From Clostridia bacterium (GTDB lineage: Bacteria; Bacillota; DTU025): a DNA stretch of 64,000 nt. Location: contig JAYFQW010000001.1 of assembly GCA_034926675.1 (NCBI GenBank), positions 62,001 through 126,000 of the forward strand, read 5' to 3'. Position numbers and translations under genes: made by a program. Position 1 is the stretch's first letter. Each line of letters opens with the position of its first letter. This document shows, one piece after another, positions 7,277-13,279 of the stretch. A model generated the notes under the pieces. It was not told the DNA's origin, searched no databases, and saw only the letters and a list, made by a program, of their open reading frames with translations.

Positions 7277-7351
7277 TCCTCGATAGCTCAGCGGTAGAGC
7301 AACCGGCTGTTAACCGGTGGGTCGCAGGTTCGAATCCTGCTCGGGGAGCCA
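7277..7351 (+). tRNA. tRNA-Asn (GTT)
   Basis: The 75-nt cloverleaf has acceptor TCCTCGA pairing with TCGGGGA, a D arm with AGCTCAGCGGTAGAGC, anticodon loop CTGTTAA (anticodon GTT, asparagine), the T arm GGTTCGAATCC, and an encoded 3' CCA after discriminator G. Confidence 0.96.
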
Positions 7352-7353
7352 TC

Positions 7354-7428
<75 letters not shown>

Positions 7429-7795: not shown

Positions 7796-8154
<359 letters not shown>

Positions 8155-8164
8155 GCCATCTGTG

Positions 8165-8607: not shown

Positions 8608-9153
8608 ATGCCATTGGGAGCCAAGCTTGAGGGAACCAGAACATACACGAACATAATGGCCGCATTTGCTGGCGAGTCGCAGGCTAGGAATAAGTACAAC
8701 TACTTCGCCGATATCGCGCGCAAGGAAGGCCTTGAGGGCATTGCCGCGATCTTCGAGGAGACTGCGGATAACGAGAAGGCTCATGCGAGAAGGCTTGCGG
8801 GGTTCGTGGGCCTAGTTTCCATAACCGAGAAGAACCTAGTCCACGCAGCCGAGGGCGAGAACTACGAGTGGACTAGCATGTATCCAGAATTCCAGCGGAT
8901 CGCTCGAGAGGAAGGTTTTGACGACATCGCCGTAGTCTTCAAGGAGATCGGCGAGGTGGAGGAGGAGCACGAGAAGAGGTATAATGCACTCCTGTCCAAC
9001 CTTCAGAACTGTAGGGTCTTCAAGAAGGACGAACCCATAAGGTGGAAGTGCCGGAACTGCGGGTATGTCCACGAGGGACCAGAGGCTCCGAAGTCCTGCC
9101 CCGCCTGCGGTTATCCCCAGTCCTACTATGAGGCGGCCTGCCGGAACTACTAG
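8608..9153 (+). CDS. rbr: Rubrerythrin
   Basis: Rubrerythrin is an NAD(P)H-dependent (via rubredoxin) peroxidase that protects anaerobes against hydrogen peroxide. The 181-aa protein has an N-terminal ferritin-like four-helix diiron domain (ligand helices with AGESQARNKY, EETADNEKAH and EIGEVEEEHEKR). A C-terminal rubredoxin domain with CRNCG and CPACG follows. ATG 8608 is preceded by AGGAGG. It is immediately downstream of rubredoxin, its likely electron donor, and upstream of another rubredoxin-like protein, so the three genes look like one oxidative-stress operon. Confidence 0.95.
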   Translation: MPLGAKLEGTRTYTNIMAAFAGESQARNKYNYFADIARKEGLEGIAAIFEETADNEKAHARRLAGFVGLVSITEKNLVHAAEGENYEWTSMYPEFQRIAREEGFDDIAVVFKEIGEVEEEHEKRYNALLSNLQNCRVFKKDEPIRWKCRNCGYVHEGPEAPKSCPACGYPQSYYEAACRNY

Positions 9154-9195: not shown

Positions 9196-9531
9196 TTGAA
9201 GCTATGGAGATGCGGAGTGTGCGGCTATGTGCACGATGGCGACACTCCTCCGGAGAAGTGCCCCAAGTGCGGCGCACCCAGGGAGAAGTTCTCGGAGATA
9301 CCCCAGGCCGATGCAGACATGATCCGCAGATCGCGGTTCACGAATGACCTCCATTGCAAGCTGATAACGCTGATGGAAGAGGTTGGAAGGCTGGCGAATG
9401 CCGGCATCGAGGATAACCTGGACCCGCCATGCGTGGGAGTGTTCAAGCTCGCGAAGGAGCAGGCATGGATCATCGGGCAGGCGTCCAAGGCCGAGATCAG
9501 AGGCCACATAGGCAAGAGCAAATGGAGCTAG
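9196..9531 (+). CDS. Rubredoxin-like domain protein with C-terminal helical domain
   Basis: This 111-aa protein begins with a short rubredoxin-like knuckle pair, CGVCGYVHDG and CPKCGAPREKF (residues 6-30), as in rubrerythrin C-termini. An 80-residue helical segment without recognised catalytic residues follows (LHCKLITLMEEV, the EDNLDPPCVG segment, ending GHIGKSKW). I recall similar rubredoxin-like fusions in clostridia but know no assigned function. TTG 9196 lies after GAGGAGG (9181-9187). It is probably co-transcribed with rubredoxin and rubrerythrin and may be another redox partner. Confidence 0.82.
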   Translation: MKLWRCGVCGYVHDGDTPPEKCPKCGAPREKFSEIPQADADMIRRSRFTNDLHCKLITLMEEVGRLANAGIEDNLDPPCVGVFKLAKEQAWIIGQASKAEIRGHIGKSKWS

Positions 9532-9620: not shown

Positions 9621-9749
9621 TCACCTGGGCCAGTACAGTCTCCCGAGGTAGGCGACTCCGATGATGGCCGCGACGTGAAGGATCCACCAGCCCGCTCTGA
9701 GGAATTCCCAAACAGTGTTGTCAACGGGGTTCTTTACTGCACTGGTCAT
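9621..9749 (-). CDS. Small membrane protein (42 aa), unknown function
   Basis: On the minus strand, ATG at 9749 is preceded by GGAGGG with a 7-nt spacer (complement of 9757-9762). The product is 42 aa with a polar N-terminus (MTSAVKNPVDNT) and then one aromatic-rich hydrophobic segment, FLRAGWWILHVAAIIGVAYL, ending GRLYWPR. This predicts a single-span membrane protein. An in-frame ATG at 9803 would give 60 aa but has no comparable ribosome binding site. The gene converges on the rubrerythrin operon. No family is recognised. Confidence 0.62.
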   Translation of the reverse strand: MTSAVKNPVDNTVWEFLRAGWWILHVAAIIGVAYLGRLYWPR

Positions 9750-9879
9750 GTCATGTCCCTCCGACTTGTAAGCATCGTTTGACGACACATTCAGCTTTCC
9801 CATCTTCCCATGTAATATACGTCTTGGAACAATATTCCATAGATCTGGCCGAATATGTAGCGTGCTTCAGGTTATGATA

Positions 9880-10266
9880 CCTAACGAGGTTTGCGACGGT
9901 CGAGCTAAGACCTGCGACGGATCTGGCCATAGGAGTTGTCGGGTTCGTCGTGCGTCGAGCAAAGGTTGGTTGTGATCGTATGCACGATCACAGCCGGCCG
10001 GAGCGAAGATCGTTGTAGGTGGCCCAACTTATGGCGGCGGTTGATGAGATCGTCGCTGTAGGGAAATCCATCTGCAGCGGTTGAGCTAAGATCGGCGTAC
10101 GGGCGAAAGCGTGGTGCTGTAGTCGAGAGACTACAGTATGATGCCCAAGTCCGGACGTTGGTCGATCAAAGGTTGTTGTAGTCCGCGTAATGGCTGTTCG
10201 GCGCCGAGAGGTGTCGGATAGTCACGCAGCGGGGTGCAGCAGCCGGAGAGAAGATCGCCGCAGACC
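9880..10266. repeat. Field of degenerate ~40-nt repeats in non-coding DNA
   Basis: The 556-nt gap between the small membrane gene (or 9803) and spoVT holds no convincing ORF. A motif resembling GTCGAGC-AAGATCG-TTGTAGG recurs with its core near 9900, 9955, 10001, 10040, 10080, 10122, 10161, 10203 and 10245, mostly spaced 39-45 nt apart. Copies near 10040 and 10080 are the most alike. Two perfect hairpins are embedded: TGTGATCGT-ATGC-ACGATCACA (9971-9992) and CTGTAGTC-GAGA-GACTACAG (10117-10136, a GNRA-type loop). It may be a structured RNA, a protein-binding array or a decayed tandem repeat. Confidence 0.55.
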
Positions 10267-10391
10267 TCCTTTTATTTGCGTTCGAGGCCTAGTTGAGGCG
10301 GCTGCTGCCCACATTTGGCTCTAACCGGTGCGTTTCCCTGAGCATAAGCGCGCATGCTCGACGGTAAAATACTAGCAAGGGAGGGATGCGC

Positions 10392-12991: not shown

Positions 12992-13279
12992 TATCGAAAT
13001 ACTGCAAAGGCTGTGAAGGGGAAGAGTAGGGCCGGGGGCGGCTTTCAGAGAGCGGGGGATGGTGGGAACCCCGTGCAGGTCCGGCCAACAAAATCACCCC
13101 TGAGCCGCGCGCTGAAAGTGGGCGAGTAGGCGCAGCCGCGTTCCCCGCGTTACAGGGGATCACCGTTTGAGTGGGCCGGCGTCTGCAGGCGCCAACTGCA
13201 TACCCGCAGTTAGCTGGCCAAAAGGGTGGTACCACGAGCTTGCCCCTCGTCCCTTGTATGGACGAGGGCGTTTCTTTTT
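12992..13279 (+). promoter_or_regulatory. T-box leader for isoleucyl-tRNA synthetase
   Basis: This tRNA-sensing leader has the AGAGAG bulge in stem I, the universal T-box sequence AGGGTGGTACCACG (13223-13236), and a terminator at its end. The likely specifier codon is ATC at 13093-13095, directly 5' of ACCCCTGAGCC, the usual position, and it decodes isoleucine in agreement with the ileS gene downstream. Uncharged tRNA-Ile is expected to bind the specifier and T-box bulge and favour the antiterminator. Confidence 0.95.
13244..13279 (+). terminator. T-box-controlled terminator
   Basis: CCCTCGTCC (13244-13252) pairs with GGACGAGGG (13260-13268) and is followed by CGTTTCTTTTT. The 5' arm lies just after the T-box sequence, so the antiterminator and terminator are mutually exclusive in the usual way. 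Confidence 0.9.

Follow-up and report, generated by a model that had tools for sequence, protein, structure and literature searches.

What occupies the interval between spoVT (PF15714/PF04014) and the small open reading frame on its other side in the 64,000-nucleotide stretch of clostridial DNA analysed here (hereafter, the window)? A preliminary description, made from the sequence alone, had noted nine copies of a degenerate motif in this interval, recurring about every 40 nt, and had offered three explanations: a repeated structured RNA, an array of protein-binding sites close to a sporulation regulator and a decayed minisatellite. We find that positions 9886-10268 of the plus strand correspond to an independent structured RNA of about 383 nt, large and intricately folded, a result that rests on its fold, its relatives and full-length alignments and that strongly supports the first of these explanations. 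The small open reading frame, of 60 aa (9621-9803, minus strand), encodes a product that is hydrophobic towards its C terminus and matches no Pfam family; the frame lies just upstream of the RNA promoter on the opposite strand.

The plus strand of positions 9850-10390 folds at -270 kcal/mol, compared with -201 +/- 7 kcal/mol for shuffled sequences (z = -9.9; 0/100 shuffles), whereas the fold of the complementary strand is unremarkable (z = -1.4). The two strands differ because the fold contains many G-U pairs, and the plus-strand RNA, not the DNA, is therefore the folded form. Across the window RNA and its relatives, folding energies are about -240 to -270 kcal/mol.

The RNA consists of a long closing stem, P1, and a junction bearing five long hairpins, A to E, followed by a U-tract. 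The 5' strand of P1 (9886-9901) pairs with its 3' strand (10253-10268), and the U-rich tract directly 3' of P1 (10269-10277) is the probable end of transcription. Hairpin A (9909-9956) has a variable tip and is shorter in the relative L081, while hairpin B (9964-9999) is a helix of about 16 bp supported by both fold and alignment, as is the 3' strand of P1. Hairpins C (10008-10082), D (10090-10163) and E (10171-10244) are each built from two segments of about 15-16 bp with a conserved internal loop between them. In hairpin C, the loop CCAACUU/GGGAAA separates module C1 (10008-10022/10068-10082) from C2 (10028-10042/10048-10062); hairpin D, with modules D1 and D2, ends in the highly conserved tip GUCGAGAGAC, which carries a GAGA tetraloop; and hairpin E, with modules E1 and E2, likewise has a GNRA tip. 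Adjacent helices are separated by linkers of the type GAGCNAA, six homologous copies in all, including the GAGCUAA that joins P1 to hairpin A (9902-9908). Most nucleotides lie in helices with compensated pairs; those left unpaired belong to short linkers and loops, of which many show conservation between families. Among unpaired positions, conservation is highest in the linkers and internal loops, and the tips of A and B differ freely in both sequence and length. In the distant relatives L077, L080 and L047, the internal loop of hairpin D carries an extra insert of up to about 80 nt; these are the largest inserts of any arm, and the window's own clade has none.

This architecture accounts for the motif copies noted in the preliminary description. 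All nine cores are present at the places given there: those at 9899, 9954, ~10000, 10080, 10161 and 10245 are linkers joining helices (for example, GUCGAGCNAAGAUC), and the tips of hairpins C, D and E, with the GAGA loop among them, supply those at ~10041, 10122 and ~10203. Nine equivalent helix modules underlie the nine "repeats", of which six are their junction linkers and three their terminal loops. Both of the perfect hairpins that had been pointed out, one at 9968-9995 and the other the GAGA hairpin, were recovered as well. The reported region is real and its ends needed adjusting, as the promoter (9851-9879), the RNA (9886-10268) and the U-tract (to 10277) together make it slightly longer. 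The proposed 40-nt periodicity is only faintly visible in the plain sequence: measured against dinucleotide shuffles, z is 2.6 at lag 39 and 2.8 at lag 40, where the best of 110 lags reaches 2.6 by chance, and the lag of 21 reaches z = 4.1. Tandem Repeats Finder reported nothing over the RNA region, and a repeat search of the region returned two-copy families only. As these autocorrelation and tandem-repeat tests are weak or negative, they neither prove nor refute the repeat; we judge the element to be real on account of its fold and the comparative data, not of periodicity in the plain sequence.

Two full-length alignments, one of 14 near and one of 18 distant sequences, from each of which a consensus structure was derived separately, arrived independently at the same structure. 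Paired cells make up 95.3% of the near and 97.9% of the distant alignment, and pairs changed on both sides number 84/140 and 102/152, respectively. These counts were reached in 0/500 shuffles, and slid controls gave at most 25 (near) and 45 (distant) such pairs. Within P1, 12 of the 17 pairs are compensated in both alignments; in the covariance models, compensated changes affect 36 of 61 pairs in R1 (hairpins C and D) and 28 of 36 in R2 (hairpin E). Some linkers also pair across a hairpin, as at columns 7/92 of alignment A4, occupied by G-C (17), U-A (11) or C-G (2). Arm lengths are nearly rigid: hairpin E is most often exactly 74 nt long in folded relatives from many families, and 28/31 E-arm sequences align without an internal indel. 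The fold is kept by compensatory change in many families, and this change shows the conserved feature to be the structure rather than a coding sequence. Consistent with the preliminary description, which had seen no convincing open reading frame, stops interrupt the frames over the RNA on both strands. Compensatory change together with invariant G-U pairs, on one strand only, means that selection acts on the RNA.

Upstream of P1, the window contains a forespore-type promoter on the plus strand (9851-9879), in which a -35 element, GAATA (9851-9855), a 14-nt spacer and the -10 element GGTTATGATA (9870-9879) end 6 nt before P1. We searched upstream of P1 at 48 unique loci with a sigma-F-like (GNATR-N13..18-GGNNANNNTR) and a sigma-G-like (GNATR-N13..19-CANNNTA) pattern and found sites in 19 and 17 of them, respectively, compared with shuffle means of 0.2 and 0.6 and maxima of 2 and 4. 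Either or both are present at 27/48 loci, leaving 21 without a forespore site by these strict consensus patterns, and a sigma-A-type pattern shows no clear excess at the same 48 loci (2 versus a shuffle mean of 0.75). Every promoter match stops 2-11 nt short of P1, and the start of the RNA is therefore likely to be fixed at P1. As a positive control, spore-protein (SASP) genes of relatives display the same layout (GNATR-N14-GG...TA, N17 spacing), for example GTATA-N14-GGTCACACTA, and the SASP gene in the window's own genome reads GCATG-N14-GGCCAAACTA. At SpoIIR genes in relatives, the sigma-F pattern found no match. In C. difficile, the sigma-F and sigma-G consensuses resemble each other (PMC3789822; PMC7438776), and in sigma-F sites a conserved G precedes the -10 (PMC3789822). 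Since the consensuses are alike and the SpoIIR genes lack a sigma-F match, we do not choose between the two factors. The presence of forespore sigma sites beside the 5' end strongly suggests that the RNA would be transcribed in the forespore. At the opposite end, a U-tract follows P1 at 34/49 loci, compared with 8% at random positions in the same loci.

No gene is conserved beside the RNA across families, which argues for a stand-alone gene and not a leader. In the window and its close relatives, spoVT lies downstream of the RNA; in L008 and L023, spoVAE-spoVAD is convergent to it (L008 1-1299); and in L025 and L027, the RNA is 3' of sigK (TIGR02846; L025 546-1268). Some copies thus adjoin sporulation genes, but most do not. 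With neighbours that vary between families, the suggested protein-binding array near a sporulation regulator does not hold as a DNA array linked to spoVT, although it may survive in spirit, given nine equivalent modules and a forespore-type promoter. These same two features make it likely that the link to sporulation runs through transcription and not through spoVT. Phage and plasmid collections yielded no match to the RNA, and a single pattern match on a viral contig (L086) failed the covariance model and was discarded.

Elsewhere in the window, the product of a gene at 9196-9531 (plus strand) is 111 aa long and combines a rubredoxin-like domain (PF21349) with a C-terminal part without assignment. 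The gene lies directly 3' of rubrerythrin (8608-9153), and related proteins adjoin the RNA in L048, L078 and L070. Rfam also identifies ordinary RNAs on the plus strand: a T-box leader (13004-13257) upstream of an isoleucyl-tRNA-synthetase-like gene, a class A RNase P RNA (7798-8156) and two tRNA genes (7277-7425).

The RNA is widespread in the phylum, and nearly all genomes that carry it have sporulation genes. When 60 relatives were searched at the DNA level, matches of 71-84% identity appeared in 10 other genomes, one of which has two copies. Among 399 sampled genomes of the phylum, R1 matches 114, and nearly all of its weaker matches show the same architecture when folded; R2 matches 171, or about two-fifths. 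A pattern scan of named genomes returned 40 loci, 34 of which R1 confirms (E < 1e-5, most far lower), in taxa including Thermoanaerobacterium saccharolyticum, Sporomusa malonica, Desulfotruncus arcticus, Pelotomaculum, Desulfallas and many uncultured Clostridia. Most genomes carry one or two copies; the Clostridia assembly SKW257 has at least five (L047, L058, L076, L077 and L079), two of them on one contig. SpoIVA is found in 336/399 genomes and in 166 of the 171 R2-positive ones (odds ratio 11, one-sided p = 5e-11, a value that ignores shared ancestry), and four of the five R2-positive genomes without it are no more than 90% complete. Within the window's own order, one family (f3) has no match to SpoIVA, SASP or SpoIIR and is also without the RNA. 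As about half of the SpoIVA-positive genomes (168/336) have no match to either model, the RNA is not a universal part of spores, and its distribution reflects frequent loss, a later origin or divergence beyond the reach of the models.

The helices P1, A, B, C1, C2, D1, D2, E1 and E2 form nine equivalent modules of about 16 bp, and a common register of wobble pairs runs through them. Base pairs were numbered outwards from the junction or, for D2 and E2, from the internal loop. In the 18 distant sequences, the six junction-proximal modules (P1, A, B, C1, D1 and E1) have mostly wobbles at bp 3 and bp 12, and four of the six also at bp 14, with the orientations U-G, G-U and U-G at 3, 12 and 14. 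In D2 and E2, wobbles occupy positions 3, 5 and 14 in reversed orientation, with C2 shifted one pair earlier; the D2/E2 pattern is the same module turned round. The 14 near sequences display the pattern as well, less completely. Two positions common to all six arms never arose in 200,000 random placements, which used the positions with at least 50% wobble in the distant-sequence count. Being 11 bp apart, about one turn of an A-form helix, bp 3 and bp 14 lie on the same side. The persistence of these wobbles beside freely varying pairs suggests that they are under selection in their own right, and the modules could be read as nine equivalent recognition or packing sites, a reading from which the scaffold hypothesis set out below derives. 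The shared register could also stem in part from a common origin, if the arms arose by duplication of a single unit.

No family in Rfam 15 matches the window RNA, and none matches 16 homologous loci at the gathering threshold or 5 more at E <= 0.1; permissive thresholds returned chance matches only, half of them to microRNA models. A search of the main texts of available papers found no description of the RNA, and only unrelated work under the acronym GEBRO. Like OLE, GOLLD and ROOL, the RNA is large, multi-helical and covarying, has no established biochemical role and is a candidate for higher-order assembly. It differs from them in its nine near-equivalent modules, its forespore-type promoter and its lack of an Rfam match. 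GOLLD and ROOL often reside on phages or mobile elements, whereas the window RNA has no phage or plasmid match and no confirmed match on a viral contig. The raiA motif RNA (ModT) is likewise a conserved structured RNA of Bacillota, and the window RNA has no Rfam match to it; a six-arm junction of repeated modules is not known from raiA. Closest in promoter type are the forespore sRNAs Bvs196 and CsfG, which are independent, structured sigma-F/G transcripts. Bvs196 of Bacillus is 294 nt long, is driven by sigma-F/G, alters spore resistance and has been reported across Bacillus, with a consensus structure predicted at -82 kcal/mol (PMC9147052); the window RNA is set apart from it by folding energy (about -240 to -270 kcal/mol) and the lack of an Rfam match, not by alignment. 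Comparative intergenic scans have yielded other large structured RNA candidates, such as the Soda Lake RNA (smtA motif) and the sig70 motif (PMC11109978; PMC6429828). The former is confined to Thioalkalivibrio (PMC11109978), and the consensus of the latter (PMC6429828), given only in a supplement, lay outside our comparison, so that it may be identical to the window RNA. With that reservation, the RNA family and its modular architecture are apparently new; a large bacterial RNA whose role is not known is a familiar kind of finding.

What might such an RNA do? On balance, we lean slightly towards a trans-acting forespore RNA that serves as a multivalent scaffold. The element would be the gene of an independent, large structured RNA acting in trans, which RNA polymerase with sigma-F and/or sigma-G very probably transcribes in the forespore from P1 to the U-tract that follows it. 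In the least certain step, the finished RNA would form a rigid multivalent scaffold in which each module presents the same recognition face, with wobbles at bp 3 and 14 and an inverted wobble at bp 12. These faces may bind repeated copies of one forespore protein, giving an RNA-protein particle that would form late in sporulation and might be enclosed in the spore. The modules might instead act without protein: their equal length and the GNRA tips would allow RNA copies to assemble within the forespore as dimers, cages or lattices, in the manner of GOLLD, ROOL and OLE. Large natural RNAs can form multimers (PMC12286853), and near-fixed arm lengths, the GNRA tips of D and E, the conserved internal loops and wobbles about one turn apart, which suit helix packing, all favour such an assembly; the tips of A and B, however, are free in length and sequence, and raiA, also large, is a monomer, and we consider RNA-only assembly rather unlikely, if worth taking seriously.

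We give little credence to a regulatory sRNA that pairs with mRNAs through its loops or linkers in the manner of Bvs196 or CsfG. Forespore sRNAs with such a promoter do exist, Bvs196 being an example (PMC9147052), but the unpaired parts here are short and conserved, unlike accessible, variable antisense seeds, and most nucleotides are tied up in compensated helices. A putative ribozyme or ligand-binding RNA, whose active site would be made up of the linkers together with the internal loops in C, D and E, would explain why these rank highest in conservation among unpaired positions; yet a linker that recurs six times almost unchanged looks more like a structural element used repeatedly than part of a single active site, and this reading is comparably doubtful. 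Far less probable still are three further readings of the locus: that it controls spoVT in cis as a leader or attenuator, that it is a minisatellite in decay, or that the DNA itself forms a structured element. The RNA does precede spoVT in the window and in its close relatives, but other families have quite different neighbours there and the U-tract follows P1. Protein-coding and minisatellite DNA were rejected as candidates, the frames containing stops and the repeat showing structural covariation. The 102 compensated pairs and near-invariant arm lengths across many families refute the minisatellite, and compensatory change with one-strand invariant G-U pairs, which points to selection on RNA, speaks against a DNA element.

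Few known cells are as tough as endospores, whose protein components have been catalogued in detail; we know of no established large structural RNA of the forespore. An RNA of about 400 nt whose geometry is nearly invariant over very large evolutionary distances would be a new component of the spore, and the RNA described here may be such a missing part. Because the covariance models work well (171/399 genomes), it is ready for annotation pipelines at once. The scaffold hypothesis raises the question of what binds a module with wobbles at 3, 12 and 14, nine times over. Tentatively, and with somewhat less than even confidence, we propose a class of forespore RNAs, present in hundreds or more of spore-forming species, that would build a structural particle of the spore from nine repeated dsRNA modules carrying a wobble-pair code, either through one protein bound many times or through RNA-RNA packing. 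If this is true, modular, origami-like natural RNAs exist outside phages.
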